Origin: a virus
DNA length: 49,192 bases
Reading direction: 5' to 3' (one strand)
Virus record (IMG/VR): IMGVR_UViG_3300030451_001059
Location: 1 to 49,192 of that record
Made by a program: the position numbers and the translations under genes. The notes under the pieces were generated by a model. The model saw only the letters and a program-made list of their open reading frames with translations. It made no database searches and had not been told where the DNA came from. Positions 14,476 to 38,078 of this stretch are shown in pieces; within the stretch, counting starts at the first letter, position 1, and each line of letters opens with the position of its first letter.

Positions 14476-14477
14476 TA

Positions 14478-17045
14478 TCAATCACCAAAGGAGTAGTAGA
14501 ACAGAGTATCACTGTAATTAGGAGTAAGAGTCGTGATGGTAGGGCAAGGAGTAGCAGACTTGTGAAATGCAATCTCATAGAGTTCTCCCATGAATTGAGT
14601 AGCCTTCCTAGCAGTAGCAGATAGAGTTCCATTCTGTCCTATGAAGCAGTCACCCGGACTCGTATCCAATCTGAACTTACCGATGTTCACCTTCGCTCTC
14701 TTCACTGGTTGATTATTCAGATACAAGGTGATGGTATTCCCATCAAAGGACATACCAACCTTACTTGGTTGCTCCAAATACAGAGCCTCCTTCTGTTGGT
14801 CTCTGTATATCGTTCCTGTAACTGTTGTAGCAGGAGCAGATGCAAGTGTAATCGTGTTTCCGCTTACTGAAGAAACAGTGCCTATGAGTGTCCCGACATT
14901 GTTGTATATCTCATTACCAGCACCTATTCCATCTGCTTCACCTGACCCTACATTGATGTCATTGACATTGGTGGTGAATGCTCCTATTGATAATCCCGAA
15001 TTTATTCCTGTATTGCTAATTGCTTGGTCTCCTGCTGATGCGGCTACTATTGTTAGCACACTACCATTTCTAGTTACTGTGAGAGAGCCATCGTGTCCCG
15101 TAGTTCCATTTATCGCACTTCTTAAATTTTCAGCAGTCGTTTGCGTGTCGTTGGTAGTACCAGTTACATTTGTAAAGAAGACAACATCATTGCTTCCTTC
15201 TGTTGCAGTAGAACCATTAGTCTCATTGTTCTCTCCCTTAGTTGGTTTGTACTTCTTGACGAGACCAGCACTATCCTCTAAAGTGATGAATGCAGTTGGT
15301 GTACTTGCAGCAGAGTAGTTGGAAAACTGATTGGTGCTTACTGAAATAATACTAGAATAGCCACTTACTCTTGCTAACGTTTGACTTGATTGGACTGCTC
15401 CGCTTGGAGAAGTCACTGTGACCACGCTCCCACTGGCTGATGCCTGATTTCCCGCAAAGCCAGTTCCTGTGAATGCAGCATTGATTGCCTCTGCTAAATA
15501 AGTAGCAGTGACACCCTCACTGCCTCCTATCAGAACCTTATGAACAGGACTAACGCTTGTCGTACTGTTAGTATCCAATGCTCCATTTGTGAAAGAACCA
15601 CTAAAGAACTTGAAGTATTTAGCAGCCGTTAAAGTACCATTTGAGTTTCGCAATCTGACTGTCATGTAGTAGTTCACATTACTAGCACTCGTAGCGTCCG
15701 TACCTCCTGAGAAGGTACTAGCAGTTAGTTTATCACTATTCGCAATGGTCGAACCAATAACAGGGCCAGTGTTAGGCGTGGTACTATGGTTTCCTGCTGC
15801 ACCTTCGGCATCCTGCACTAAGGAAATAGTTCCTGTTGTCCCACTAGTGTTGGATGTTGTAGCACTGATATCCAACCCCGAACTTGGATTGCTCCCAGTG
15901 CCATTTACGTCATTGATAGCCTTGAATAACATCAATCTAAAATTCGCACCATTGACGGTGGTACTATTGATTATAACCCTACCACTCTGAGGAACAAAGA
16001 CATCTACTTGAGTATCACTTGAACCATAGCCATTTTCAGTCAATTGTGATTGCAACAAAAACCCATTTGTAATGCTCGATAAATCACTATATGTGTATAT
16101 TCTTGCAGCAGTTCCCTGCATTTCACTGGGCCACCCACCTGAAGAAGAATTATCTGTCATAAAGAATCTGTATGTTTTATTGGAACTAGAACCTGTGCCT
16201 GTTTGCCTGTTTCTGAGAATGATGGCATTGTTGTTACTAGCAGACGTACTCGATGTTATTGGAGTAGCACTCCAACTATTACTGAATGTTATTGACCCCG
16301 TTGCCTTTGTACCGCTAGAAGCAGCAACGTCTAGATGAGAAGAACCGGGAACATTAGTTACAGTAAATGTAGCAGTACCCTGTACTTCAGCAGTGTTTGT
16401 GAAACTAGCCAAGTCTCCTGTTATCGAAGTTGTCGCAGTAGGAAGAGAGCCAGTCGCACTACTGGTTATTTTCGTCTTGTCTGTTGTTATACCACTGTAA
16501 AGACCATCAGGGTCATAGTATCCAGTCAGTGATTTCTTAGATACGAATACTGGCTCACTAGCAACCGTGTGGCTTATCGGAGTACCTATTGAGTCTGTGA
16601 GTTCAACAACCAACTTGTACTCTGCTGGTTGATTGAAGTTGGAGGATGTTGTATTCTGCAAGTAGAACTTCAGATAGTCGTTGCAGAATATCATCATCTT
16701 GTGTGTTCCTCTACCTGCTCCGAAGTAACTGACACTCTCATAATTGGATGTAGTATCTGCTTGGTCGTCTAGTGATAGGTTTGGACTAGGAGGAGTCTTT
16801 GTGCTATCGAGCCTTCCTTGCCCTGATGTTCTATGACCGACTCCATTTACATCATAGGGAGTTACTATCGCTTCAATGCTGAATGGCCCTCCATAATCCC
16901 ATAGAGGATGTCTTGACTCGTCTATCGTGTTGCTTCCAGTCAAGTCGTTGCTGTTGTAGTCATCATACTCTATCTTCAGGTGTCCATCGCACATCACAGG
17001 AAATACCAATGCCCTTGTATCTCCTACATGTGCTGTTGTTGCCAT
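14478..17045 (-). CDS. Tail adhesin with LamG/ConA-like domain split by a repeat insert (855 aa)
   Basis: The N-terminal ~190 residues include PFSIEAIVTPYDVNG, a strand pattern typical of the start of a concanavalin/LamG fold. The C-terminal part (about 745-850) has SFDGNTITLYLNNQPV, IGQNG and FMGELYEIAFHKSA, the usual second half of the same fold. Between them lie about 550 Ser/Thr/Gly-rich residues with at least three related modules. Each has a Leu-x-x-Ala-Ile-Asn helix followed by strands of the VVTVTSPSG or VLTIVAASAGD type, near residues 350-415, 510-560 and 640-690. Such modules are common in marine phage tail proteins. The protein probably binds host-surface glycans, by analogy with LamG proteins. 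It ends 2 bases before the hub gene starts. Confidence 0.75.
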   Translation of the reverse strand: MATTAHVGDTRALVFPVMCDGHLKIEYDDYNSNDLTGSNTIDESRHPLWDYGGPFSIEAIVTPYDVNGVGHRTSGQGRLDSTKTPPSPNLSLDDQADTTSNYESVSYFGAGRGTHKMMIFCNDYLKFYLQNTTSSNFNQPAEYKLVVELTDSIGTPISHTVASEPVFVSKKSLTGYYDPDGLYSGITTDKTKITSSATGSLPTATTSITGDLASFTNTAEVQGTATFTVTNVPGSSHLDVAASSGTKATGSITFSNSWSATPITSSTSASNNNAIILRNRQTGTGSSSNKTYRFFMTDNSSSGGWPSEMQGTAARIYTYSDLSSITNGFLLQSQLTENGYGSSDTQVDVFVPQSGRVIINSTTVNGANFRLMLFKAINDVNGTGSNPSSGLDISATTSNTSGTTGTISLVQDAEGAAGNHSTTPNTGPVIGSTIANSDKLTASTFSGGTDATSASNVNYYMTVRLRNSNGTLTAAKYFKFFSGSFTNGALDTNSTTSVSPVHKVLIGGSEGVTATYLAEAINAAFTGTGFAGNQASASGSVVTVTSPSGAVQSSQTLARVSGYSSIISVSTNQFSNYSAASTPTAFITLEDSAGLVKKYKPTKGENNETNGSTATEGSNDVVFFTNVTGTTNDTQTTAENLRSAINGTTGHDGSLTVTRNGSVLTIVAASAGDQAISNTGINSGLSIGAFTTNVNDINVGSGEADGIGAGNEIYNNVGTLIGTVSSVSGNTITLASAPATTVTGTIYRDQQKEALYLEQPSKVGMSFDGNTITLYLNNQPVKRAKVNIGKFRLDTSPGDCFIGQNGTLSATARKATQFMGELYEIAFHKSATPCPTITTLTPNYSDTLFYYSFGD

Positions 17046-20473: not shown

Positions 20474-22015
20474 CTAATTACCTGTTGCACTACCGCCAAG
20501 AGTCATTATCGCCCACTTACCTGTATAGGTAGCAGTCGTCAGAGTCCTTGCTGTTATAGATGCCTCTACTTCTACTGGCCCTTTGTCTTCAGGGAAAGGC
20601 ACTGTAACTGAGTTGATTAGATAATCAGCGAGTTGAATGTCTATCTCTTCACCTGAGTCTTTGGTGAACTTCAATCTCAAAGCACCAGTTGATTCGTTAT
20701 CGTTTCTCAATTCATCCCACAGTTTCGTATCTGTTATGAGCATGGTCAGAGTCAATTCGTATGTTCTCTGTCCGGGTAGATGTGCAGATGCAATCTGCCT
20801 GTTGTAGTTGCCAATGAACCTCTGTGGCAGTAGGTTGTTGTTGATGACAAGAGAACCACCTTTCACCTTACCCAAGGACTGACCGAACAATGTGATGTCT
20901 CCATCAGAGAATAGGAATGGGTAGTTGTCTGTTAGAGTGGAACTGTAATTGACCATTCCCCTTCCATTCTCAGCATCGCTTAGAGCAGTCAAGGATGCGT
21001 TTCCACCAAGAGGAACATAGTTAGCAGGAGGGTCGAAAGCCCTTCTTGAAACTAAATCCATTGAACACTTTAGTTCCTGACCCTCTTCAAAGTTCAGAGT
21101 GAGAGTATTTACCTGACATCCTGTGAAGATTCTAGAGTACATGTTCTCGTTAGGGGATAGGGAATCTAGAGCAGTGGTGTTAGTGTGTCCTGCTTTCCTG
21201 TATACCACATCAAGAGCGAAAGATGGAAGAACGTCATCATCTGCTTCACTGAAAGTGTAGTTGAACATGTCTGAGCCATTGTATACTTGCAAGTTGCTGA
21301 TAGCCAAGTCAGAACCACCACTGTCTATCTCTGGATAGTTGTTGTGTTCGTAAGACCTGAGTATCCTGTTTGCTGATGCATTGACAGCGATTGCGTTCTC
21401 TCCGTTTGAAGTGGATAGAGTAGCGTGTGTCCCTGAAAGGGTGTAGGATAATTTGCCTAGTGCGTAGTAAAGCCAAGAGCCGTTGTTGAGAGAGATATCC
21501 AATGAGCCTCCGCTTACTGTCTCCGCTCCCTTGTACTGATAGTCGAAGTTCCTACCACCTGCGGCAGCAAGGTTGAGTTGCTTCATCTCCACCTCTACGC
21601 TTGGTGGTGTGAATGTATTGACTAGTCCTAGCCAACTATCAGAGTGTATTCTAGGATTAGTACCGCCATCTCTAGAAGCGTATAGAGGTGCGCCAAACGA
21701 AAGTATAGTTGCATCCATAGTTCCCGAAGTTACTGCACTGCCGTTGGAGTCAACTGGTGCGGAATCTATGACTATCGTTGTTGCAGTGTTGTCTACGATA
21801 GTTCGGTATGAGGTTGCATCGTTTGAGGCCAATGCTCCAATCTTCACAGTGCAACCGATATACAAATCAGGGACTAAATGAACTAGGGTTTGCTGACCGC
21901 TTGATAGTGTTAGAGTTGTACTGCTTGAAAGAACAGCATCCTGAAAATACAAGTCCAATTCAGGACTCATCCCTACTTGTGCATTTGCGCCTACGAATAC
22001 TTCATTACTTGCCAT
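20474..22015 (-). CDS. Major tail (tube) protein (513 aa)
   Basis: This beta-rich protein of 513 residues lies directly upstream of the tail chaperone pair, the standard place for the tube subunit. The C-terminal half has a tube-like pattern: GQSLGKVKGGSLVINNNLLP, RTYELTLTMLITDTKLWDEL, then LRLKFTKDSGEEIDIQLAD and PVEVEASITARTL. The N-terminal region (VGANAQVGMSPELDLYFQDA) and a middle Ser/Thr/Gly-rich part suggest an added surface domain, since simple siphovirus tube proteins are often 150-300 residues. It is followed by a 77-base gap with a T-run, consistent with high expression. A long tail is implied by this gene plus the tape measure; no sheath gene is visible, so a siphovirus-like tail is favoured. 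Confidence 0.85.
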   Translation of the reverse strand: MASNEVFVGANAQVGMSPELDLYFQDAVLSSSTTLTLSSGQQTLVHLVPDLYIGCTVKIGALASNDATSYRTIVDNTATTIVIDSAPVDSNGSAVTSGTMDATILSFGAPLYASRDGGTNPRIHSDSWLGLVNTFTPPSVEVEMKQLNLAAAGGRNFDYQYKGAETVSGGSLDISLNNGSWLYYALGKLSYTLSGTHATLSTSNGENAIAVNASANRILRSYEHNNYPEIDSGGSDLAISNLQVYNGSDMFNYTFSEADDDVLPSFALDVVYRKAGHTNTTALDSLSPNENMYSRIFTGCQVNTLTLNFEEGQELKCSMDLVSRRAFDPPANYVPLGGNASLTALSDAENGRGMVNYSSTLTDNYPFLFSDGDITLFGQSLGKVKGGSLVINNNLLPQRFIGNYNRQIASAHLPGQRTYELTLTMLITDTKLWDELRNDNESTGALRLKFTKDSGEEIDIQLADYLINSVTVPFPEDKGPVEVEASITARTLTTATYTGKWAIMTLGGSATGN

Positions 22016-22746: not shown

Positions 22747-23823
22747 CTAATCAATGAAATGTATGATATCCTTCTTTCCATTTAGTATCTTATTAGCCTC
22801 TTCAAGAAGTATATCGTGCTTAGTTTTCAGGTCTATGTTAGAGCCTGTCTCAGCAATGAGTATTGAGTTGTCATCATGTCTTATGACCTCGGCTGCAACT
22901 AGTTTTGTGGCAGCGTCATGTATTGTAGCAGGTACTCTCTTTTCTCCACTAACATATGTGACACGAACAGAATGTGAATGTAGGAATGGGTAGTTCTTCA
23001 AGAAGAATATCTTGCCATCTTTGTCAATTGTCCAATAGTCTCCCAACCTCTTTTGATTTTGATTATCTGTAAACTGAGTTACTGTGCCAACTGTTGATGA
23101 TATCGTACAAGCAGAACCATCCTCTCCCATCAAGAGTGAGGAAATTACAACTGTGTCTCCTGCTTCGCTGTCCGTTGTGGCATAGAAGAAATCAGACACA
23201 TTCACAGTAGGCGCACCATTTGCAGTGACAGTCTTGGCAGAAGTCTCACCAGTAAACTTCGCAGTCTTGTGTGGGAAGACCTCATTGATTGCATCTGCTA
23301 TTTGACTAGCAGTTGTCTTTGGGCCATAGTTGTCGAAGAAATCAGTTCCCTTCGTAATATTGAATGTGTATGCTCCTACACCTAGAGCAATAACCCAAGA
23401 GCCTCCTGTGGGACTCGATGGGACTTTTATCTTAGCAGAGGCAGATGCCAAGTCAACATACTCAGTTCCCTGCCATACCTCTAGCCTTACAATCTTCTGA
23501 ACATCAGGTCTCTCTAGTTGAACAAAGCCAATGTAATCCTTGAATCTATTTACTGGATAAGCACCCATCTTGAAAGCCTCAAAGCCATGAAACTCATGAT
23601 GGTAGATTACTGGTCGGTAAGAATGTCCTACGACATCATCTACTCTCTCCTCTGCTTTCTTGATTAGGTTTCCAACCTCTGCGATAGAAGGAGTAGTAGA
23701 TGAACTGAATGCTGCTATCTGCAATAACTGTGACACATCACTATGCGTAGTATAGAATCCTCTTCCTTGCGAGTAGTTTGGATTGATATTCGTAAAGTCA
23801 CTTGGGGATGATAGTTTTGACAT
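22747..23823 (-). CDS. Head-tail connector / adaptor protein (358 aa)
   Basis: The N-terminal part (residues ~40-90) has VGNLIKKAEERVDDVVGHSYRP. The C-terminal part has HSVRVTYVSGEKRVPATIHDAATKLVAAEVIRHDD followed by a final helix. Together these give the helical bundle pattern of HK97 gp6-like head-tail adaptors, in which the VTYVSG...VP..I..A...L segment is characteristic. Between them is an insert (about 130-260) with strands and a TASQIADAINEVFPHKTA helix, resembling the modules in the LamG tail protein. It lies between head genes and tail genes as expected for a portal-side ring. The insert probably decorates the neck; that is inference. Confidence 0.72.
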   Translation of the reverse strand: MSKLSSPSDFTNINPNYSQGRGFYTTHSDVSQLLQIAAFSSSTTPSIAEVGNLIKKAEERVDDVVGHSYRPVIYHHEFHGFEAFKMGAYPVNRFKDYIGFVQLERPDVQKIVRLEVWQGTEYVDLASASAKIKVPSSPTGGSWVIALGVGAYTFNITKGTDFFDNYGPKTTASQIADAINEVFPHKTAKFTGETSAKTVTANGAPTVNVSDFFYATTDSEAGDTVVISSLLMGEDGSACTISSTVGTVTQFTDNQNQKRLGDYWTIDKDGKIFFLKNYPFLHSHSVRVTYVSGEKRVPATIHDAATKLVAAEVIRHDDNSILIAETGSNIDLKTKHDILLEEANKILNGKKDIIHFID

Positions 23824-25215: not shown

Positions 25216-25902
25216 CTATGCCAACCACTTCGCCCAAGCAACCCCTTTACTCAAAGCACCAGCCAGTCCAAGACCACTAGTTGGTGGGGTGTATGATGGT
25301 TGACCAGTATTGGGGTCTATCCAATACGGGTTATTGTATTGGTCATATCCAGCAGGTGGAATAGGATATCCTGATTGATTGTTGAAAGCCATTTGCTGTT
25401 GCATCATCTGCTGGTTCATTCCTCCCATAGCAGGTACGCCCTGTATGTTAGTAGGTGCGCCCTGTTGTGGCATACTACCCATCTGTGTTTCTTGTGATGG
25501 TGAAGCAAAGCCTTGTGACTCTAGATACTGTTGCTTTGCCATTCTTCTCTGCATGATGACTTCCGAGTTAACAGCAGACGATAGTAGATTCACAATATCC
25601 AAGTCTATGTTCTCTTGCGTGATGGTGGTAAACTCCGATAGTGAGTCGGGGTGTATTTCCAAGTCACCATTGGTGTTGGAAACGAATTTCATTTTGACTA
25701 GCATCTGACTGACAACTCTAGTCACTACGTCTTCCAGCATTTTCTCAAATGAAGTTAGAAACTGTTCTCCATGATACTGAAAGAATTCTTCCACATGATT
25801 CTCTTGCAAAGTTAAGAGATTGTTAGTCATTTTAAAGTTGGCTTGCCCCATTGTATTAATCTGAGAAGACAAAGCCGAGTTGCTCGTTCCGAATACACCC
25901 AT
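25216..25902 (-). CDS. Virion-region protein with Gln/Met/Pro-rich tail (228 aa)
   Basis: The first ~125 residues are helical (QINTMGQANFKMTNNLLTL, EKMLEDVVTRVVSQMLVKM). Residues ~135-210 are a low-complexity segment rich in Gln, Met, Pro, Gly, Asn and Tyr (for example MNQQMMQQQMAFNNQ). The C-terminus is a short hydrophobic stretch (LGLAGALSKGVAWAKWLA) that could be a membrane or capsid anchor. ATG 25902 overlaps the previous stop (TGATG) and is preferred over the GTG one codon earlier. No family is recognised. Its position between the zinc-finger protein and the neck genes suggests a virion component. Confidence 0.7.
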   Translation of the reverse strand: MGVFGTSNSALSSQINTMGQANFKMTNNLLTLQENHVEEFFQYHGEQFLTSFEKMLEDVVTRVVSQMLVKMKFVSNTNGDLEIHPDSLSEFTTITQENIDLDIVNLLSSAVNSEVIMQRRMAKQQYLESQGFASPSQETQMGSMPQQGAPTNIQGVPAMGGMNQQMMQQQMAFNNQSGYPIPPAGYDQYNNPYWIDPNTGQPSYTPPTSGLGLAGALSKGVAWAKWLA

Positions 25903-26582
25903 CACTCGCCACCTTCCTGTGTCTCAATCTTAACGCCTTCGGTCAATAAAGATTTAATCTTAGCAGACATGGCAGTATTCTGTATCATCAGAGCATAGAG
26001 TTGCTCTTCCTTCGATGAGTTCTCACTAACTGGTGGCTCTACTGTCCATCCTAGAGATGTAAGAGAATTAATATCCTCTTGCTTCAGTTGTGTTATCGGC
26101 CCTGACTTTACTAGGTTTACTGGATTGAGACTCCTAGCAGAAGGGATATAAGCACTGAATGAAAGCCCATGTTCCTCTGCTAGTATTTGCTGTTCTAGCA
26201 TCTCATACTGCATGTGTATCGCTGCATGTTTCTCACAGTATGTTCCTCTCATTGGATATCCCTTGCGAACCTTGTGCAGTGGAAGCGGTGGTCTTCTAGT
26301 GTCGTCTGCTGTCCAAAATTTCTGTGTTCCACATATGACACATCTATCCTTGTAGTTGTACTTGAAGGAGTAAGGTATCTTGAGGAAAGTTTTCTTCTCA
26401 GGTTTCAACACCTTCACTATTTCTTTCAACTGCTTCTTTGGTTTCAATGCCTTATACTCATAAGCCATTATTGGCCCTGCTGCTCTTGCAGCAGTCAACC
26501 TATCCATGAATGGATTAGGGCCAGCATTCACTGTTGCGTTCGTTGCTCCTATCAAACTAGGGGGGTTAAATTGCATGGACAT
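25902..26582 (-). CDS. Zinc-finger virion-region protein (226 aa)
   Basis: A single zinc-binding site is visible: Cys81 and Cys84 in RCVICG, then Cys116 and His119 in YCEKHA, with basic residues between. The rest is a Pro/Ala-rich start, a Lys-rich stretch (ALKPKKQLKEIVKVLKPEKK) and helical C-terminal segments. A ribosome binding site, GGAG, lies about 9 bases before ATG 26582. It follows the GTPase gene after a ~60-base gap. Zinc-binding structural proteins recur in this genome (see the portal), a feature common in archaeal proteins. Whether it binds DNA, RNA or protein cannot be told from sequence. Confidence 0.72.
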   Translation of the reverse strand: MSMQFNPPSLIGATNATVNAGPNPFMDRLTAARAAGPIMAYEYKALKPKKQLKEIVKVLKPEKKTFLKIPYSFKYNYKDRCVICGTQKFWTADDTRRPPLPLHKVRKGYPMRGTYCEKHAAIHMQYEMLEQQILAEEHGLSFSAYIPSARSLNPVNLVKSGPITQLKQEDINSLTSLGWTVEPPVSENSSKEEQLYALMIQNTAMSAKIKSLLTEGVKIETQEGGE

Positions 26583-26643
26583 TTTCTATTTCTCCTACCA
26601 ATCTAGGTCTACCCTGCGGTAAGACCTGACTAATCTGACGCAT
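26566..26643 (-). CDS. Possible 25-residue leader ORF
   Basis: ATG 26643 overlaps the GTPase stop codon (TGATG) and opens a 25-codon frame that ends at TAA 26568-26566, inside the next gene. The coupled start resembles other junctions here. There is no separate strong ribosome binding site and the peptide has no recognisable feature. It may only carry ribosomes to the zinc-finger gene, or be chance. Confidence 0.25.
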   Translation of the reverse strand: MRQISQVLPQGRPRLVGEIENVHAI

Positions 26644-27314
26644 CAGTAGTCTTTTATCATTGTTAATATTCCACGATAAACCATTTCAGAGTCTGACTTA
26701 GCACTCACTATGTACTTATGACAAGGTATTCCAGTTTCATTCAACTTCTGCAATCCCGGTTTGAAAGATTCAAAAATAGGATGATTCTCTATTTTTCCAT
26801 CATAGGGATACTTGTCTTTCCATAAGTCATACTTGTTTGCCCAAAGACCGACAGCCAAGGGATAGTCGTGGTCTTGCTTCTTCTTCTTTCTACCACCAAT
26901 TGTCCAATACGGATTGCAGATAGTATCAACTAGAAATGTCCAAGATAACTGCTGCTCTATGTCATAGTGCTTGCTTAGATGTCTGTCATCGAACATGAAG
27001 ATGATGTATTTTACATGCCTTCCTCGCATGTCTCTAACCCATTCTTCCCAATAGACAGTCTGCCCACCTATGTCAGCAGTCTTTACAGTATGAGCATCTC
27101 CATCTAATTTGACGAATTTGCGAGTAGCCCTGTGTCTGCCTACTGTACGTTTCTGTATTTCAGGCACTTCTCCTCTAGTCATCAGTTGTTTATGCAGTGT
27201 AGTCTTACCTGCTTGACTTGCACCATAGATGCCGAAATTGATAGCGTGAAGCCGATTATATAACTTGTTCATTGCTTCTACAATCAGTATTGCAAAACCT
27301 GCCATTACCGACAC
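26643..27314 (-). CDS. Arf/Ras-like small GTPase (223 aa)
   Basis: All main G motifs are visible. G1 (P-loop) is GASQAGKTT at residues 31-39. G3 is DIGGQ at 81-85, the form typical of Arf/SR-beta type GTPases, with Gln at the catalytic place. G4 is NKYD at 160-163, preceded by LWA. G5 is SAK at 204-206. A Thr at 57 or 64 could be the G2 switch residue. The first ~22 residues (AGFAILIVEAMNKLYNRL) are hydrophobic to amphipathic, like the membrane-binding helix of Arf proteins. A basic loop (GRKKKKQ, 140-147) is an insertion. It follows two small membrane proteins. GTG 27314 has GAGGTGAT 3 bases upstream; ATG 27305 is the alternative. The role in the virus is unknown; membrane-linked assembly, entry or host subversion are possibilities. 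Confidence 0.85.
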   Translation of the reverse strand: MSVMAGFAILIVEAMNKLYNRLHAINFGIYGASQAGKTTLHKQLMTRGEVPEIQKRTVGRHRATRKFVKLDGDAHTVKTADIGGQTVYWEEWVRDMRGRHVKYIIFMFDDRHLSKHYDIEQQLSWTFLVDTICNPYWTIGGRKKKKQDHDYPLAVGLWANKYDLWKDKYPYDGKIENHPIFESFKPGLQKLNETGIPCHKYIVSAKSDSEMVYRGILTMIKDY

Positions 27315-27368
27315 ACTATCACCTCGTCAGTGAGTCGGATGTCGCAGAGCATTAAAATGGTTGAGAAG

Positions 27369-27590
27369 TCAATGACCGCCCCAAAGAGAAGTTAGTATGT
27401 GCCATCCACCTGAGAATAGGTTAACCCCAAACACTGCTACTGCATGTCCTAAGAAGAAACTTGCAATAGATGCGAATGTTCCCCAAAGCCAAAACCTTGC
27501 TCTTAGAAACCACACATCAGCAGAGTGCGCTCTTTGAAGGTCATAGGCTAGAGTAGATTCATCCATCCCAAATAGGATTTCACTTACCAT
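27369..27590 (-). CDS. Small membrane protein (73 aa)
   Basis: The N-terminal ~30 residues are polar. A long hydrophobic stretch at about 33-60 (FWLWGTFASIASFFLGHAVA and onward) can form one or two membrane segments, and the protein ends SLWGGH. It lies between another membrane protein and the GTPase, with a 5-base gap to the former. Holins are often of this size, but no lysin gene is seen next to it, so holin is only one option. It could also be a virion membrane component or a partner of the GTPase. Confidence 0.7.
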   Translation of the reverse strand: MVSEILFGMDESTLAYDLQRAHSADVWFLRARFWLWGTFASIASFFLGHAVAVFGVNLFSGGWHILTSLWGGH

Positions 27591-27595
27591 TTAAA

Positions 27596-28021
27596 TCACT
27601 CATTGAAACCTGTTAGGAAAGTTGGACTGACCGTTTGCACTTCTTGAGCGGTTGGTTGCATTACTGGTAGATTTTGGTCTCCGTATGCTGTCGTGCCAAA
27701 CTGCTGCTGGAAGCCTCTGAAGGATTCTCTTACCCTCTTTCGGTTTTCCTCATCTCTTGCCTTTCTGTTCCAATAAGCATTGATTTGTCGCTGAAGTAGG
27801 AAGTCCTCTATGTAATCATTAATCATCAAATCGAATAGTGCTTTCAGTATCACTATCCCTCCTACGGTTAGAACCCCGAATATCATAGCCACTGGGTAAG
27901 GACCATAGGCACTCACAAAGGTAGAACCGTATTGCGAGAAGAAGTAAACATTGACACCGCTAACTGCTCCAACGAATAGAACAGTCATTATTAGTCTAGT
28001 ATCTGTATCTATACTTGGCAT
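27596..28021 (-). CDS. Membrane protein with two N-terminal transmembrane helices (141 aa)
   Basis: ATG 28021 is chosen because a perfect GAGGTGAT ribosome binding site lies 5 bases upstream; an earlier in-frame start would swallow that site. Two hydrophobic helices are visible at about residues 9-28 (LIMTVLFVGAVSGVNVYFF) and 40-64 (VAMIFGVLTVGGIVILKALF). They are followed by a basic amphipathic segment (QINAYWNRKARDEENRKRVR) and a Gln/Pro-rich end. No signal peptide cleavage site is obvious. It is one of two adjacent membrane genes before the GTPase. The function is unknown. Confidence 0.72.
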   Translation of the reverse strand: MPSIDTDTRLIMTVLFVGAVSGVNVYFFSQYGSTFVSAYGPYPVAMIFGVLTVGGIVILKALFDLMINDYIEDFLLQRQINAYWNRKARDEENRKRVRESFRGFQQQFGTTAYGDQNLPVMQPTAQEVQTVSPTFLTGFNE

Positions 28022-28031
28022 GGTAATCACC

Positions 28032-28328
28032 TCAAGCAAAGTTTACAGAAACAGTTCCTGTGCCAGTAATCTGAACATATATTCCATTGGCTACAAGAAC
28101 GCCATGTAGGTCTTGCTCGATGGTTTGAGCAGTGCCTCCTGCATGTAGAACTAGTCGGGCAACCTCCTTCTTGCCTGATGTTGATGAGTCGTTACTGTCC
28201 CAAATCTTGACAGTCATTACAGCGTTAGCCGTTGATGTGGCATGAACGCTCATTATCTTGCAGTGATGCTTTACTGCGACAGTGCTTGTAGATAGAACTC
28301 CTGTGCTGTTGCAGGTAGGTGATGACAT
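28032..28328 (-). CDS. Small beta-rich virion-type protein (98 aa)
   Basis: The start is taken at ATG 28328, in a TGATG overlap with the SAP-protein stop; a GTG one codon earlier is possible. The protein is compact and strand-rich (VMTVKIWDSND, VARLVLHAG, GIYVQITGTGTVSVNFA). Such small proteins near the capsid gene in marine phages are often head fibre or decoration subunits. No motif proves this. It has no membrane segment. Confidence 0.65.
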   Translation of the reverse strand: MSSPTCNSTGVLSTSTVAVKHHCKIMSVHATSTANAVMTVKIWDSNDSSTSGKKEVARLVLHAGGTAQTIEQDLHGVLVANGIYVQITGTGTVSVNFA

Positions 28329-28822
28329 CACTCTGCCTCCGACATTCTCTCCACTAGGTCGGCTTTCTTGCCATCAGTAGATAGTCCCTTTTCCTCAAGC
28401 ATTTCTTTTAGTTGCTTCACTGTATATTGTGAGTAGTCAACAGCCTCTTCTTCAACCTCTTCAGGCTCTTCTGCTGCTGGCTCTTCTGCTGCTGGCTCTT
28501 CCTCTACGGGAGTATCCTTAATCAGATTTGGAATGAAAGACTTCTTCTCAGAGGGGAATAGTGCAGCCTTTACTGCCTTTGCATCTCCCTCAAGGTCGAA
28601 CTCTTTCTTGAGTAGGTTTAGGAGATACTCGTTGAGTCCGAGTATATCACCTGAGTCTGTTGAATCTAACTCAACAGTTAATCCGCTATCTCCTAGCATT
28701 CCTATTGCTATTCCTAACGGAACTTTTGTTTCTTCTTGCGCTGTTAATGCGTATGTTTGACCGCCTCTTCTCAAGATGAGAGGGCCAGTTGGTCTATGTC
28801 TAACTAACTTTACTTTTGCCAT
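28328..28822 (-). CDS. SAP-domain protein with acidic linker (164 aa)
   Basis: ATG 28822 is preferred because AGGTGA lies 6 bases upstream; an upstream in-frame GTG overlaps that site. Residues 1-100 form a mixed domain (VRHRPTGPLILRRGGQTYAL, then helices). Residues ~106-129 are an acidic Glu/Pro/Ala linker. Residues ~130-161 (YTVKQLKEMLEEKGLSTDGK then KADLVERM) match the SAP/HeH helix-extension-helix fold, which binds DNA or serves in termination and repair proteins. In phages such C-terminal SAP/HeH tails are seen on head-completion and other virion proteins. It lies two genes after the capsid gene, so a neck or internal-head role with DNA contact is plausible. Confidence 0.78.
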   Translation of the reverse strand: MAKVKLVRHRPTGPLILRRGGQTYALTAQEETKVPLGIAIGMLGDSGLTVELDSTDSGDILGLNEYLLNLLKKEFDLEGDAKAVKAALFPSEKKSFIPNLIKDTPVEEEPAAEEPAAEEPEEVEEEAVDYSQYTVKQLKEMLEEKGLSTDGKKADLVERMSEAE

Positions 28823-28843
28823 TTTATTCACCTTTTTATTGTG

Positions 28844-28883
28844 GTAGTAACCCCTGCCCCGTATTAGGGGCAGAGGCCACTAC
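28844..28883 (-). promoter_or_regulatory. Strong intergenic hairpin after the decoration gene
   Basis: In the 89-base gap between the putative decoration protein and the SAP protein there is a hairpin. The arms CCCCTGCCCC (28851-28860) and GGGGCAGAGG (28867-28876) pair with one mismatch around a 6-base loop. An outer 5-bp stem GTAGT/ACTAC (28844-28848 with 28879-28883) extends it across a 2x2 internal loop. No T-run follows it on the minus strand, so it is not a standard terminator. mRNA-end protection or attenuation between the highly expressed capsid genes and later genes is my inference. Confidence 0.55.
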
Positions 28884-28911
28884 TTTACGTTATCACTTAA
28901 TCATTGTCATT

Positions 28912-29247
28912 TCAGAGATTACCATAGACACGGACTCTTACCATGCCTTCATCTCCTGTACCTGATTGTTGTGCAGAGCCAGTAGACAGGATAAGTTTGG
29001 CACTTGTTCCTGACTCGTATGCTCCTGCGGTACTGATGACGGCTCTTGCACTGTGTCCAATCTCTTCTACACCAGTTACAAGAACACAGTGTAGGGAAGA
29101 CAGACCCAACTCAGCAGCAGTCAGGGTTATTCCACCCTGAACGTATGCAGTTATGTTGACTATTGCATCAACAACATACTCGTCACCTGCGACCTTTGGG
29201 GCAGTTACGCCCTTATGGTCAGCAACTAGAGTAACAGCGTGTGTCAA
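28912..29247 (-). CDS. Probable capsid decoration protein (111 aa)
   Basis: This small, neutral, strand-rich protein directly follows the major capsid gene (ITAYVQGGITLTAAELGLSS, HCVLVTGVEEIGHSARAVIS, GMVRVRVYGNL). The start is an unusual TTG at 29247. It is supported by a perfect GAGGTGAT ribosome binding site 5 bases upstream (29253-29260), which overlaps the capsid stop codon, and there is no better start. Proteins of this size and place often form trimeric decoration spikes on HK97-type capsids. The functional call is by position and character. Confidence 0.72.
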   Translation of the reverse strand: MTHAVTLVADHKGVTAPKVAGDEYVVDAIVNITAYVQGGITLTAAELGLSSLHCVLVTGVEEIGHSARAVISTAGAYESGTSAKLILSTGSAQQSGTGDEGMVRVRVYGNL

Positions 29248-29258
29248 CTCTAATCACC

Positions 29259-30620
29259 TCAAGCACTCTTGATGTTGGTTATCTTTCCTTGTCCCTTGAA
29301 GAACGAACATCCGGTTTCACCCATCGTTCGGTACATTCCTTGGTTTCCAAGTTTGCCAACACCGAATGGGTTTCCACTAGTGATACCATCCTCGAAATAC
29401 TGAGTAGGCTTCATAACCGATAGCCACAGATGGTCTGTGTCTAGGATGAGTATGTCACTCAACTCGTTGGTTGTGTTGCTACCAGTAGATGGCATGTCCT
29501 TGGTTGGGATGATTGGGATGTCGTAGTATGTTGCAACTCTGAATCCAACTTCCTGTCCCTTAACTCCACGAACTCCGTTGTGGGTTGGAACAATCTCCTT
29601 CCTGTCCATGAACCTCTCTTGGCTTTGTAGCAAGTCAGCAATGTGCTGAACTGTGTCGTATCCAGTTAGGATAACCTTCGGGTTTCCGCCGTTCTGCCTG
29701 ATTCTCCTAATCATGTCATTAAGCATGGTTAGAGTTAGAACTCTAGCATCGCCAGCAGCATATCCTGAACCGAAGTCAACCTCTGCGTCCAAGAAGGAAG
29801 CAGTTCCAGTTGCAGCGTTGCTGGATATAGAGACAGTTCGGGAAGTTCCGAACAGCCTTACAACATCAGCGACAACTGCGGAGTTGTCTCCGTTGTTAGC
29901 ACCAGTGTCCAATAGGTTTGCGTTATACATAGCAGCAATCTCACCAGCAGAGGAAACTATCTTCATTAGAGATGTGTAGTTTCGCTCGATGGTTGTTGCA
30001 GTTCCGTCATCATACCTCTCAAGAGGCATGACTAGCATCTTGCTCTGAGTCTCTGCGTGTAGTTTACCCATGTCCTCTCTAACGATTGCACGAATGTCAC
30101 CAACACCGTCATCAATAGCAGCAAGTTCCATACCAAGTTCCGAGAACTCAAACAAGTGAGCAATCGTCTTTGGACTGACGTATAGTTTCTCATACTGAGG
30201 TGCAATTGGTGGGATATCGTTTCCAGTTCCTAGAGTTGCGTTCTCACCAACACCACCAATCTTGTCTGCTCTTGGTGTGTCTGAACCTTCAGCACCAGTT
30301 CCGATTCCGAATGCAGAACCTGAGCCACCCTGCGCTCTGCTCTTTAGGACTCTCCATCCACTGGATGTGTAGGGTCTCTTTGCAAGCATAGCAAGAGGGT
30401 TAACCTCTTGGTTTAGCATAGACCATACTTTCTGTCCGTAGAGAACATTGTATAGGTCTCCCAATCCACTAGCAGCAGAAAACGGGTTGCTTGCTGCATC
30501 GTGGGGCGTTCCGAAACCACCGACAACACCAGCAGCCTTTAGCAGAGCATTGCCCTGTGCGCCAGCATAGCCGTAGGTGGCTGCTTCTAAGTCTTTTACT
30601 GTGTTAATATATCCACTCAT
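29259..30620 (-). CDS. Major capsid protein, HK97 fold (453 aa)
   Basis: The gene follows the protease/scaffold gene by one base and has a good AAGGTGA site 7 bases before ATG 30620. The sequence has an N-terminal region rich in Ala/Gly, then NPLAMLAKRPYTSSGWRVLK, an E-loop-like Gly-rich stretch (residues ~95-135), a long spine-helix-like segment (VREDMGKLHAETQSKMLVM) and a C-terminal A-domain pattern (RVLTLTMLNDMIRRIRQNGG, VILTGYDTVQHIADLLQ, IPIIPTKDMP, ILILDTDHLWL). The KRPYTSSGWRV type sequence is one I associate with capsid proteins of uncultured marine archaeal viruses, but I could not verify that by search. The protein assembles the icosahedral head on the nested scaffold. Confidence 0.92.
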   Translation of the reverse strand: MSGYINTVKDLEAATYGYAGAQGNALLKAAGVVGGFGTPHDAASNPFSAASGLGDLYNVLYGQKVWSMLNQEVNPLAMLAKRPYTSSGWRVLKSRAQGGSGSAFGIGTGAEGSDTPRADKIGGVGENATLGTGNDIPPIAPQYEKLYVSPKTIAHLFEFSELGMELAAIDDGVGDIRAIVREDMGKLHAETQSKMLVMPLERYDDGTATTIERNYTSLMKIVSSAGEIAAMYNANLLDTGANNGDNSAVVADVVRLFGTSRTVSISSNAATGTASFLDAEVDFGSGYAAGDARVLTLTMLNDMIRRIRQNGGNPKVILTGYDTVQHIADLLQSQERFMDRKEIVPTHNGVRGVKGQEVGFRVATYYDIPIIPTKDMPSTGSNTTNELSDILILDTDHLWLSVMKPTQYFEDGITSGNPFGVGKLGNQGMYRTMGETGCSFFKGQGKITNIKSA

Positions 30621-30621
30621 T

Positions 30622-31323
30622 TTAGTTCACCTTCCTTGCGAGGTTGTGTATGTCTCCCCATGACATCTCAGCAACTGCATCAGCAGTTGTTGGGAATCCT
30701 TCAGGTAGAGAGAAAGCGACTTCTGTTGCTTTCCTTATCTCATCATCCTTTGCAGTAAGGGACTTGCGTAGTTCTGCAAACTCCTCTTTGAGAGCGGCTA
30801 CTTCTGACGAAGCATCGTACTCTGCTCTCTCTGCGGCTGATTTCTTGACTTCAAGTTCAGCAGCGAATCTCTCAGCGAATTGCTTCGATAGGTTATCGTA
30901 AGCCATTGCCTCTAGTTGCTCTGCCTTGTAAGCCTCGTAAGCCTTCTCTACGTTCTCGGCACTGAGGTCGAGAGTTGTGAAGTCAGAACCCTCAAGACCC
31001 TTAGAGACTGATAGGGCAGCAGGAGCAGCCTTTGGCCTTCCGCCACTTACTACTTCCTCTCCGGCCTCATAGTCTCTAGTTGAGTCTTCATCAAGAGCCT
31101 TCTCTTCCATATCCATGCTCTCAACTTCGTCTTCCTTCATAGACATTTTATCATCCATGTCCATGCTCTCAACTTCTTCCTTTTCGGTCATCATTTTTTC
31201 GTCTTCTTTCATTTCCATTGTCTCCAATTCATCTTCTTTTGCGACTGTTTCACCAGTGACCTCACGAACCTGCGTTAGCAGACCATTGAGTTCTTCCAGT
31301 GCTTTCGTCAATTTTTCCGTCAT
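30622..31323 (-). CDS. Nested scaffold protein from an internal start (233 aa)
   Basis: Inside the protease gene, in the same frame, ATG 31323 (Met180 of the fusion) is preceded by a perfect AAAGGAGGT ribosome binding site (31338-31330) with 6 bases of spacing, stronger than the site of the full-length gene. Translation from here would give a free scaffold of 233 residues: N-terminal helix MTEKLTKALEELNGLLTQV, an acidic Met-rich middle, coiled coil and the C-terminal MSWGDIHNLARKVN. Phage lambda makes its scaffold Nu3 from an in-frame internal start of protease gene C, so the design is known. It allows many scaffold copies per protease. Confidence 0.72.
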   Translation of the reverse strand: MTEKLTKALEELNGLLTQVREVTGETVAKEDELETMEMKEDEKMMTEKEEVESMDMDDKMSMKEDEVESMDMEEKALDEDSTRDYEAGEEVVSGGRPKAAPAALSVSKGLEGSDFTTLDLSAENVEKAYEAYKAEQLEAMAYDNLSKQFAERFAAELEVKKSAAERAEYDASSEVAALKEEFAELRKSLTAKDDEIRKATEVAFSLPEGFPTTADAVAEMSWGDIHNLARKVN

Positions 31324-31860
31324 TTCTTTACCTCCTTTCGCTTTCAAAATGTCGAATTTCGCTTCAGGGTTTATTCCTTTTTCACATATAGTAACTTCAT
31401 GCAACTCCAAGTTGTCAATCTCGTTGTATTCCCCGTATTCCTCCGATTTCCTTTCTCTCTTTGATATCGCTTGTCCACCGATACTGAAGGAACGTAATGT
31501 GCCTTTTCTGATTCCTCTGTTTATTTCCTTTGCCTTCTCTATGTCATCTCTCATCTTGATAACCACATAGAATCCGACACCATCTACACCTGTCTTGTGT
31601 AATGTACCATTGGAATCACGGTATTGCTCTATCACCTCTCCTACCTGAACGTTGGAATGATTTGACATGACGTTTCTGTAAGACTTCTCACTCATGAAAT
31701 CTTTAACGGCTTTTTCTAATGCTTCTAGTGTAATCAAGTCATTCTGCTTATCTACTATTTCGATGGATGCATATCCTCCGATTACTAGATTATCTGACTT
31801 GAGAATAGTGAAATCACTAGAACTCTCCTGTCTAATCAATACCTCCTGTTCAGCAAACAC
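30622..31860 (-). CDS. Prohead protease-scaffold fusion (412 aa)
   Basis: Residues 1 to ~175 are an HK97-type prohead protease (S78-like). The probable catalytic His68 lies in MSNHSNVQVGEV and the probable catalytic Ser124 or Ser126 in TLRSFSIGG. They are followed by LHEVTICEKGINPEAKFDILK, the usual end of this domain. Residues 180-412 are a scaffold: coiled-coil, very rich in Glu, Met, Asp and Lys, with a repeat (EEVESMDMDDKMSMKEDEVE and onward). The last residues are AEMSWGDIHNLARKVN, similar to the Trp-centred peptides of the head cassette. The start is GTG 31860 with AGGTG upstream, which is enclosed in a hairpin. The gene precedes the capsid gene, the canonical order. The protease should cleave scaffold and perhaps tagged cargo during maturation. 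Confidence 0.88.
   Translation of the reverse strand: MFAEQEVLIRQESSSDFTILKSDNLVIGGYASIEIVDKQNDLITLEALEKAVKDFMSEKSYRNVMSNHSNVQVGEVIEQYRDSNGTLHKTGVDGVGFYVVIKMRDDIEKAKEINRGIRKGTLRSFSIGGQAISKRERKSEEYGEYNEIDNLELHEVTICEKGINPEAKFDILKAKGGKEMTEKLTKALEELNGLLTQVREVTGETVAKEDELETMEMKEDEKMMTEKEEVESMDMDDKMSMKEDEVESMDMEEKALDEDSTRDYEAGEEVVSGGRPKAAPAALSVSKGLEGSDFTTLDLSAENVEKAYEAYKAEQLEAMAYDNLSKQFAERFAAELEVKKSAAERAEYDASSEVAALKEEFAELRKSLTAKDDEIRKATEVAFSLPEGFPTTADAVAEMSWGDIHNLARKVN
31330..31338 (-). promoter_or_regulatory. Internal ribosome binding site AAAGGAGGT
   Basis: Nine bases complementary to the 3' end of 16S rRNA lie inside the coding sequence, encoding Lys-Gly-Gly of the protease-scaffold joint. They are 6 bases upstream of in-frame ATG 31323. 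The position exactly at the domain border supports use as a separate scaffold start. Confidence 0.7.
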
Positions 31861-31898: not shown

Positions 31899-34463
31899 TT
31901 ATTCAGGTAGTTCTAAATTGCTATACTTGTCCTTTGTGATATCGATGATTCCCTCATCAGATGTATCGTCCAACATGTCTTGTTTCTTGCCTGTGAATAC
32001 AATCCAAGACTTTTTCTCATCTAGGGGAACAACCCTGAAGTGTATTCTAGTTTGGAACTTGTCTCCTTCCATTCTATATTCATGATACCCATCTCGTTGA
32101 ACGCCGAAGATAAGTTCTCCACTGTCTATTATCTTCGTGCTGTCTATCTTCTCAGATACTTTCGCTGGATACTTGCCGGACTTACCGAATAAGTCAAAGA
32201 TGTCTTCAGGCTTTTCTAAGTCTATTAACCAAGCCATTCTGTCTTTGTCTGTTTGGATGACAAAATCCAAGTTACCGTCTTCACGTTGGCGAACTTCAAA
32301 CTCTCCTGCTAGTTCACCATCTTCGTCCTTCTCTATATTCTCAGGAGATACATCAAACCTGTTAGGTGAAAGGAACACGAATGCATCTTGATTCTTCATC
32401 CAAGATAGTAGATTCTTTGGCTTGCCCTCAAAGATTTCATCATAGGCATCCTCTTCTGTTACTCTGAGTTTCTCTTCTAGTTCATCAAACTCCATTGCTT
32501 TCTGATTGTCCTCTATTATCTTCCTAATTGCTACTCTTAGTTTTGATTTCCTAGACTTCATTAGTTTCTCTAGTTGTTCCTTCCATACATCCATGTTATG
32601 CAATGCATTCTTCTGCATCAATTGGTCTCCATCGAAACCATAAACAGTGAATCCATCTAACTCATGCTTGCAGATTATCTCTGCTTCTCCATGAACATAA
32701 TCAGTCACAATATACTTCTTGATTCTCTTTTTGTCTTTCTTCTCTTGTTGCAACTCTGCTATCACAGTTAATGGATTAGCCAAATCAGATGGCTTGATGA
32801 ATGGATGCTTTGGCATCAATGCCTTCTTTGTCTTGGTTGCCAATTGCTCTAGAGTCTCTAGTTTGTCAGACTCATCCACTTCAGGTAACTCTATCACTTT
32901 AGCAGAATAGAGACTGAATCCCTTTCCTTTCTTGGTGACTTCATCCACCTTTACACGAATGATGCTTCCAACATCAACCTCGACTTTGGTATTCAATGCC
33001 TTACCAACAGGAAGGTAGTTCTTGTCATCAAGTTCCATTGTTTTCATTTCCCTAGTCTGTTCAGCAGTGAGAGGACCAATACCCATTGTATAGGAATGTA
33101 GGCCACTCTTCGTTTTCTTGTCCTCTAGAACTATCACATCTAGGTCAACGAACTTCTTCCACTTAATCCACTTCGGGTTCTTCTTCCTACCCATGTAGTA
33201 AGTTGATTCTATGTCCTTGATTACAACGCCCTCTGAGGTTGGCATCTCCATTATCTTCTCTGCATACTCCCCGACTTCCTTCATGGAGTCAGCGATTCTA
33301 GTATCTTTCTTGGATGGGAAAGCAAGTTCTTCAGAAGAATGCTGTGAGTATTGATAGAACATTATGTTGATTCTCTCTCTTAGAGGCTCATCCATCAAAT
33401 CCTTTCCTTCGTGTTTCATCACATCAAACACATGCGCCCTTAGTTTAGTATCGGGTATCTTCTTCTTGAACACATGAGTAATCACACTTGCTCTATGTAG
33501 TGCCTCATCTCCTTGAAAGAGAAGCAGTTCTCCATCCAGTATGCAATCTCCTATCCCTTTCTTATTCATCTTCTCGACTATTTCAGGACACTTATCAGTG
33601 ATGTCCTTCTCGTTGTATGAGTATACCTTGATGTTATCTCCCATCTTGTGAATCTGTATTCTCATTCCGTCATACTTCTCTTGAACAACATACTCACCGC
33701 TCAATCCCTTGATGTCCTTCATATCATCGAGTTCAAATATTCGATACATTGGTTTGTTCGGTATTATGAAATCAATGTCCTCCTTCTCCTCTTCTGACTT
33801 TGCAATGTCAACCTCTACTAGAGAGTCCCACTTTTCCTCTGAGTAACTCTCATCATATACCTTCTCTAGTAACTCTCTTGCTTCCTTGAACTTACCCTTT
33901 ACTCTTTTAGAGTCCTTGTCGTCACCATAATGCTCTATTATGTATAGGGGAATGTCTTTGTCTTCTAAGTCTAGACCCATGTATCCTTGAGTTATCTCAT
34001 CGGGCTTTAGGTCATTCTCTTGCCATGCCTTCTTTGGTATTGGGTTTGAATGGCTTCGCAATGCATAATGGATGAATGCTGCGAATGTTGCCTTGTCTTC
34101 TAGAAGAACCTCTAGAACCTTGTCTCCTAGTTGCTCAGAGAATGGGTCAGATGCTCCCTTCGACTCGAATCTCATTCTCTTTACATCTTCATAGACTCTT
34201 CTAGCAAGAAGGCTCTCAGCATCGAATACCTTGTCATCGAAGAGTTCCTTCTCTGTTATACTGTCTTTCAGTTCTGAGGCGAACTCTCCTAAGCCATCAT
34301 ATTCCTCACGAATAGACTTCACAGTTGACTTCCACTTCTTACCGTATTCCTTCGGATTCTCCTTTGCAGATAGGTATGCATAACGCACCCTCTCAAAGAA
34401 ATCTAGAACTCTTTTTGATAGAGCCTTAGTTTCCTTCTCAAAGGATACGCCTGATGTTGTCAT
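31899..34463 (-). CDS. ATP-dependent DNA ligase with extra N- and C-terminal domains (854 aa)
   Basis: All nucleotidyltransferase motifs are visible. Motif I is EKYDGMRIQ with adenylated Lys263. Motif III is LDGELL (Glu312), motif IIIa HVFDVM (346-347), motif IV EGVVIK (411-416) and motif V KWIKWKK (431-437). An OB-fold follows (about 440-540, GSIIRVKVDEVTKKG). The core resembles archaeal and eukaryotic ATP-dependent ligases. The N-terminal ~235 residues are charged and do not show an obvious ligase DNA-binding domain. The C-terminal ~290 residues (a winged-helix-like part, then GELIFGVQRDGYHEYRMEG and TRIHFRVVP...SWIVFTGKK) are additional. The reaction is ATP-dependent nick sealing. Unusually it lies between virion genes, just before the protease, so it may act on packaged DNA or be virion-borne; that is inference. 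Confidence 0.9.
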   Translation of the reverse strand: MTTSGVSFEKETKALSKRVLDFFERVRYAYLSAKENPKEYGKKWKSTVKSIREEYDGLGEFASELKDSITEKELFDDKVFDAESLLARRVYEDVKRMRFESKGASDPFSEQLGDKVLEVLLEDKATFAAFIHYALRSHSNPIPKKAWQENDLKPDEITQGYMGLDLEDKDIPLYIIEHYGDDKDSKRVKGKFKEARELLEKVYDESYSEEKWDSLVEVDIAKSEEEKEDIDFIIPNKPMYRIFELDDMKDIKGLSGEYVVQEKYDGMRIQIHKMGDNIKVYSYNEKDITDKCPEIVEKMNKKGIGDCILDGELLLFQGDEALHRASVITHVFKKKIPDTKLRAHVFDVMKHEGKDLMDEPLRERINIMFYQYSQHSSEELAFPSKKDTRIADSMKEVGEYAEKIMEMPTSEGVVIKDIESTYYMGRKKNPKWIKWKKFVDLDVIVLEDKKTKSGLHSYTMGIGPLTAEQTREMKTMELDDKNYLPVGKALNTKVEVDVGSIIRVKVDEVTKKGKGFSLYSAKVIELPEVDESDKLETLEQLATKTKKALMPKHPFIKPSDLANPLTVIAELQQEKKDKKRIKKYIVTDYVHGEAEIICKHELDGFTVYGFDGDQLMQKNALHNMDVWKEQLEKLMKSRKSKLRVAIRKIIEDNQKAMEFDELEEKLRVTEEDAYDEIFEGKPKNLLSWMKNQDAFVFLSPNRFDVSPENIEKDEDGELAGEFEVRQREDGNLDFVIQTDKDRMAWLIDLEKPEDIFDLFGKSGKYPAKVSEKIDSTKIIDSGELIFGVQRDGYHEYRMEGDKFQTRIHFRVVPLDEKKSWIVFTGKKQDMLDDTSDEGIIDITKDKYSNLELPE

Positions 34464-37805: not shown

Positions 37806-38078
37806 TCACTTCTGAGAGAACTTCCTTCCTGTTGGGACATGTTGCTGTCCTTTCTTACGACCCTTCCTTTTCTTTCTGTCTTGATAGTCCAATGTCTTCT
37901 TTGGGGTTCTTTTGTATGTGGCCTTTGGCATGTATCTTCCCTTTGTTTTGGAAGGTGCTTTCTTACCCTTCTCCTTTGCACGATGTTGCTCTTGGCTTCC
38001 CCACTCCTCATCTGTCCAAGTAGCCAAGTCCTGTTGTGTCTTCTTCTTGGCTTTGAGAGTTGCAAACCAATCAGTCAC
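37806..38078 (-). CDS. Tagged Lys-rich protein (90 aa)
   Basis: The start is GTG 38078, overlapping the end of the PAP2 gene; a longer frame would run much further into that gene. The product begins MTDWFATLKAKKKTQQD, carrying the Trp-centred peptide. It continues TWTDEEWGS and a basic region (KGRYMPKATYKRTPKKTL, RKKRKGRKKGQQH). The WTDEEWG...GRYMPKA pattern resembles a small domain common in marine and other phages (DUF5872-like, from memory). About a third of residues are Lys or Arg. DNA binding inside the head is likely but not proven. Confidence 0.72.
   Translation of the reverse strand: MTDWFATLKAKKKTQQDLATWTDEEWGSQEQHRAKEKGKKAPSKTKGRYMPKATYKRTPKKTLDYQDRKKRKGRKKGQQHVPTGRKFSQK

Follow-up and report, generated by a model that had tools for sequence, protein, structure and literature searches.

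Does a tailed virus carry a genuine small GTPase among its virion genes, and if it does, what might a GTP switch contribute there? The question arises from the window studied here, a 49,192-nucleotide stretch of viral DNA (IMG/VR record IMGVR_UViG_3300030451_001059, positions 1 to 49,192), for which an initial annotation made from the letters alone proposed an Arf-like GTPase beside two membrane proteins. It is virtually certain that the window encodes a small GTPase that is conserved and belongs to a fixed gene cassette; the purpose of that cassette can be argued with graded confidence from its composition, its position, and its distribution among related viruses.

The small GTPase

The 223-amino acid GTPase is encoded at 26643-27314 on the minus strand, with a GTG start codon preceded by the Shine-Dalgarno-like sequence GAGGTGAT, a good ribosome-binding site. 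The motifs follow one another in the order described by the initial annotation: G1 is GASQAGKTT (residues 31-39), G3 is DIGGQ (residues 81-85), G4 is NKYD (residues 160-163), and G5 is SAK (residues 204-206). The hydrophobic or amphipathic N-terminus also noted there corresponds to a helix of residues 3-22 in the AlphaFold model, which has a pLDDT of 75 and a pTM of 0.75, with switch I poorly modelled.

Profile matches for the single sequence fall below curated cut-offs, yet nearly all of them are GTPases. The NCBIfam small_GTP profile (TIGR00231) gives E=2.5e-6, under its curated cut-off, and the sub-threshold Pfam matches are Roc (5e-5), MMR_HSR1 (1e-3), Arf (6e-3), and SRPRB (0.02); the score for Arf (PF00025) is 16.5 bits against a cut-off of 22.3, and that for SRPRB (PF09439) is 14.7 bits against 25. 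A phmmer search of the PDB places Arl8-type proteins first (E about 0.05), while in a search with a viral profile built from two clades the first matches are 8oun, a “GTP-binding protein,” at E 0.0013 and 5ck3, an SRP-receptor-type chain, at E 0.002. Within the clade of the window (clade 1), 27 of 29 members match SRPRB weakly. The fold search returned 1241 PDB matches at E<=1e-3; Rab, Ras, Arl8, and G-alpha lead the list, and its top entries are small GTPases with a probability of 1.00 and TM-scores of 0.4-0.55 by query length. The modelled fold is that of a GTPase, contrary to the non-GTPase P-loop identity that the initial annotation had named as refuting. By motifs and modelled fold, the window protein is an intact small GTPase of the Ras superfamily (TRAFAC), predicted to bind and hydrolyze GTP.

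The evidence on the term “Arf-like” is divided. The DxGGQ form of G3, a tryptophan seven residues after its glutamine, and the profile matches to 8oun and 5ck3 agree with it; the missed Pfam cut-off for Arf, the lead of Rab and Ras among the fold matches, and the replacement of the glutamine in about one third of homologues do not. Rarity in tailed viruses had been suggested as well and was upheld: a search of 50,697 phage records found no match to the family, no PHROG corresponds to it, and the named viral proteins among the best 50 fold matches listed from BFVD belong to giant viruses of eukaryotes.

Virus type and host

The window encodes a major capsid protein (MCP) of the SU10/HVTV-1 type (29259-30620, minus strand), nearest to those of HVTV-1 and HCTV. 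A SAP-domain protein (28328-28831, minus) lies between the MCP and the cassette; the first conserved neck gene past the cassette encodes an adaptor/neck-type protein like gp125 of HVTV-1 (22747-23823, minus), and a tail tube protein (PF18906) like gp128 of HVTV-1 is found at 20474-22015 (minus). Portal, TerL, head protease, and tape measure proteins are also encoded. The GTPase sits in the virion gene strand between the MCP and the neck and tail genes, and its assignment to a virion gene block was correct.

In a 102.7-kb relative (G001), the replication genes form a block oriented opposite to the virion block and include a PolB split over two ORFs, an ERCC4 nuclease, RFC, an ATP ligase, a TFB-type Zn ribbon, and RNR. 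Magroviruses of Poseidoniales are reported to have the same gene plan (PMC10160649, PMC10768690). Group A magroviruses have an ATP ligase beside the head protease (PMC7318539), and the same adjacency is present in the window, which itself is without the replication part. Going by the layouts described in these papers, the window is probably a magrovirus-type archaeal tailed virus of group A. A second clade of relatives (clade 2), whose GTPase is 33% identical to that of the window, has an HMG-CoA-lyase-like gene as reported for group B/Aoguangviridae; its gene content suggests a resemblance to group B magroviruses. On gene content, marine Poseidoniales archaea are the probable hosts. One homologous locus (L457, IMGVR_UViG_2788499960_000001) has an IMG number unlike those of metagenomes; it is perhaps from a single-cell or assembled genome and could give a host link.

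Several other features of these genomes deserve mention. The ligase-domain protein of the window virion block (31899-34463, minus) has 854 amino acids and an intact EKYDG motif, although the replication block of G001 encodes another, complete ATP ligase. A variable slot adjoining the portal gene is occupied in the window by a PAP2-superfamily protein of the lipid phosphatase type (38071-38871, minus), which has no match in G001 and a partial match elsewhere in another relative, G003. Past the tape-measure region, two giant ORFs (690-6965 and 7324-14481, minus) presumably encode tail-tip or fibre proteins, of 2091 and 2385 amino acids. Rfam and tRNA scans of the window were empty, and a promoter scan found fewer sites than in shuffled sequences.

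A five-gene cassette

Two small membrane proteins precede the GTPase in the direction of transcription, as the initial annotation had stated, and the proposed three-gene set proves to be a conserved set of five. The first protein, MP1 (27596-28021, minus), has two transmembrane segments and a charged C-terminal tail; its start is placed at 28021, where the conserved family sequence MPSIDTDTR begins, while the longest ORF begins at 28039. The second, MP2 (27369-27590, minus), has 73 amino acids, a conserved soluble N-terminal stretch, and one transmembrane segment (38-56), and it directly precedes the GTPase in 89/89 clade-1 loci. After the GTPase comes a Zn-finger-like protein of 226 amino acids (25902-26582, minus) with a CxxC...CxxH pattern, in which C81, C116, and H119 are invariant in both clades; it is a candidate regulator or effector of the GTPase. 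The last member is a Gln/Met/Pro-rich protein of 229 amino acids (25216-25905, minus) with a conserved C-terminal helix-like segment.

From MP1 to the Gln-rich protein, the members are in place in 86, 89, 89, 88, and 85 of 89 clade-1 loci and in 79, 81, 81, 81, and 81 of 81 clade-2 loci, the missing counts in both clades including loci cut by contig ends. In a third set of homologues, all four partners are present in 77 of 80 loci. Between clades 1 and 2, profile comparison indicates homology of the Zn-finger-like proteins (89% probability) and of the Gln-rich proteins (74% probability), with mismatched controls at or below 7%. For MP1 and MP2, no homology between the clades is detectable by profile; position and transmembrane topology (two segments, then one) are all that they have in common. 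The clade-1 cassette lies 3 kb downstream of the MCP, between the head-decoration and adaptor genes, while that of clade 2 is about 21 kb upstream of the MCP and the clade-2 interval from MCP to adaptor is without it. The place of the cassette changes and its content does not, so that it behaves like one machine.

The Zn-finger-like protein has a low-confidence model (pTM 0.47) and no significant PDB match, and for these reasons a GAP-like fold is not claimed for it. In the subclade of locus L438 (606-1490, minus) it lacks the second cysteine (CVIDGA), so metal binding may not be universal. Insertions into the cassette are few; one of them, in a clade-2 locus (L172, 8737-8937), is a small AbrB-like ORF of 66 amino acids that separates the GTPase gene from that of the Zn-finger-like protein.

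Conservation and variation of the GTPase family

Scans of IMG/VR confirmed 125 relatives with the window GTPase as query, 170 with a relative of 33% identity, and 143 with a third query, the last set overlapping the second. The marine viral contigs yielded 205 distinct homologues; 204 of them keep G1, 204 keep G3 together with WxxW, and all 205 keep G4. The loss of G motifs that the initial annotation had named as evidence against a GTPase did not occur. The P-loop Lys/Thr, a G3 of the form DxGG or DxAG, and NKxD are essentially invariant. In the first two sets, all 142 distinct proteins have the tryptophan at switch-II Gln+7, an Arf/G-alpha position. The median dN/dS of 0.063 indicates strong purifying selection; this value and the 205 conserved homologues rule out a chance or degenerate P-loop ORF.

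Other positions vary. For G5, clade 1 has SAK and clade 2 has ATR; residue 2 is serine in clade 1, varies within clade 2, and is not glycine. At the position equivalent to Gln61 (residue 85 of the window protein), 132 of 204 homologues have Q, 64 have E, 7 have D, and 1 has H, and this toggling, with at least ten changes between Q and other residues on the tree, is unusual in an otherwise invariant active site. The switching from Gln to Glu or Asp at the catalytic position suggests that hydrolysis may depend on a residue supplied by a partner or may be slow. Ras Q61E has been reported to hydrolyze GTP, and glutamate at this position need not abolish hydrolysis.

A core gene of two lineages

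Presence was examined starting from the MCP and not from the GTPase. Of the clade-1 (group-A-like) MCP loci with sufficient flank, at least 4.5 kb downstream of the MCP, 56 of 56 have the GTPase. It was found in 12 of 18 MCP-found clade-2 contigs, which are 12 of the 12 that contain the expected site; the apparent absence in the other six, group-B-like contigs is explained by each ending before that site, some 21 kb upstream of the MCP. A 102-kb genome without a GTPase match (G041) is ambiguous, as its contig also ends before the expected site. The GTPase is absent from the complete genomes of HVTV-1 and the methanogen virus vir335. Between distant clade-1 genomes, identity is 78-79% for the GTPase, 75% for the MCP, and 83-85% for TerL. 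Two large magrovirus-type lineages have the GTPase as a core gene of their virion block, and it is about as conserved as the MCP.

Recent capture of a host gene, or hitch-hiking, is ruled out, since all testable relatives in two deep lineages have the GTPase and the cassette is fixed. Nor did a genome scan indicate a cellular source: it matched only a Maricaulis MAG, and the three contigs concerned look like mis-binned virus contigs. This bacterial MAG, “Maricaulis sp. IN14,” appears to be contaminated with archaeal-virus contigs, and its contigs C57, C77, and C111 (loci L082, L091, L092, and L093) have magrovirus-type cassettes from both clades.

Comparison with known systems

The closest functional parallel is ArvA (OapA) of Haloferax volcanii, a vesiculating small GTPase encoded next to a Zn-ribbon protein, which drives vesicle formation (PMC10927574). 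Deletion of ArvA lowered vesicle output and overexpression raised it, while loss of the Zn-ribbon partner raised output, leading the authors to suggest that the partner is a GAP (PMC10927574). The viral protein resembles ArvA in its archaeal setting, single-domain architecture, weak Arf-family profile similarity, operon partner of the Zn-ribbon or Zn-finger-like kind, and proposed membrane role. However, ArvA is a cellular gene and the viral GTPase a viral core gene. By Pfam, the viral cassette has neither DUF2073 (ArvB) nor DUF2072 (ArvC), so that the Zn-finger-like gene is not identified as ArvC, and it has two transmembrane proteins and a Gln-rich protein instead. It is plausible, by analogy, that the viral GTPase works like ArvA.

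Similarity to Arf/Arl and SRbeta proteins extends to DxGGQ, the Q+7 tryptophan, an N-terminal helix before the G domain, and best sequence matches to Arl8 and an SRP-receptor-type chain; the viral family differs in its sub-threshold Arf and SRPRB scores, its variable glutamine, the lack of Gly2, and fold matches led by Rab and Ras. Giant viruses of eukaryotes also encode Ras-fold GTPases, the best viral structural matches in BFVD, but their Rab, Ran, and Ras genes are sporadic and host-like, about 10-22% identical, found in unrelated viruses, and not part of a core virion-block cassette. An MglA-type system is not indicated, as Pfam gave no Roadblock (MglB) match in the ten genes of 25216-31860. 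The virus shares an SU10-type MCP and the ligase-protease adjacency with Magrovirales (Apasviridae and Aoguangviridae) and with HVTV-1 of the Druskaviridae, and a relative shares the split PolB, ERCC4, RFC, and TFB-type protein; HVTV-1 is nevertheless without the GTPase despite a related MCP, adaptor, and tube. The magrovirus literature examined nowhere mentions a GTPase. No description of a small GTPase in archaeal tailed viruses was found in the papers covered, although a passing annotation may exist elsewhere. We take the domain itself to be a familiar one, and its viral family and five-gene arrangement to be new.

Possible function

A link to membranes, suspected in the initial annotation, is likely. 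The reading that we favour, although we would put it at somewhat less than an even chance, is a membrane-anchored, GTP-dependent switch that acts as Arf, SRbeta, or the haloarchaeal ArvA do and recruits viral partners to the host membrane for late assembly or egress. The N-terminal helix, together with MP1 and MP2, would hold the GTPase at the host membrane; the GTP state would recruit the Zn-finger-like and Gln-rich proteins as effector or regulator, and hydrolysis would release them. The cycle would serve a late step at the membrane, most probably its remodelling for egress or the assembly of virions tethered to it. This proposal is favoured by the intact motifs and fold, strong purifying selection, MCP-level identity, and presence in 56/56 and 12/12 testable genomes. 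It is also favoured by a five-gene order kept in three locus sets although the block moves relative to the MCP, by the matching transmembrane topology in both clades and the hydrophobic N-terminal helix, by homologous Zn-finger-like and Gln-rich partners, by location in the virion gene strand, and by the precedent of ArvA beside its Zn-ribbon protein (PMC10927574). It is weakened by partners that are not ArvB or ArvC by Pfam, by undetectable homology of MP1 and MP2 between clades, by fold matches that do not favour Arf over Rab or Ras, by replacement of the glutamine in about one third of homologues, and by a host assignment drawn from gene content. A bolder version is a virus-encoded Arf-type machine made up of the GTPase, the two membrane proteins, the Zn-finger-like protein as regulator, and the Gln-rich protein as coat or effector, which would bud off or reshape the archaeal membrane in assembly or release; this we regard as possible but doubtful.

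The placement in the virion block also counts against a membrane-anchored switch for late steps, since it fits a structural or entry role equally. The cassette proteins might be carried in the particle, with the GTPase and the membrane-active proteins acting at the host membrane during genome entry. In favour of this, capsid-decoration genes flank the clade-1 cassette on one side and neck genes on the other, the particle could carry small membrane proteins encoded there, and HVTV-1 has one transmembrane protein (gp124) at the corresponding place. However, the clade-2 cassette is about 21 kb from the MCP, HVTV-1 manages without a GTPase with related capsid, adaptor, and tube proteins, and a cytosolic GTP switch would be an odd structural part, and we consider an entry device unlikely.

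Similarly improbable is mimicry of a host GTPase involved in SRbeta-like targeting, polarity, or vesicle control, to which the profile similarity to 8oun and the SRP-receptor-type chain and the weak SRPRB matches of clade 1 might point. Such a mimic would serve to redirect protein insertion or to block a host process such as superinfection. An accessory gene directed at the host would be expected to come and go, whereas fixed linkage to four virion-block genes and capsid-like conservation would be unusual for one. A scaffold that binds nucleotide for assembly or stability with little turnover and no switch cycling would accommodate the frequent changes at the Gln61 equivalent and the variable G5, but is very unlikely given the essentially invariant P-loop Lys/Thr, DxGG or DxAG, and NKxD, and given that glutamate in place of Gln61 need not abolish hydrolysis.

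Implications

Under the favoured reading of a membrane-anchored switch, the cassette would let a tailed virus work on a membrane late in infection in a manner not described before; if the Arf-type machine were true, it would be a route driven by a GTPase such as is not known from tailed viruses. To our knowledge, how archaeal tailed viruses leave their cells is largely unknown. Magroviruses are reportedly widespread in the surface ocean, and a core, strongly conserved GTPase cassette is a concrete candidate for a membrane step in assembly or egress. The recurrent change of the catalytic Gln to Glu or Asp is a natural experiment on GTPase mechanism, and any account of where in the archaea membrane remodelling by GTPases began now has a viral branch to consider.
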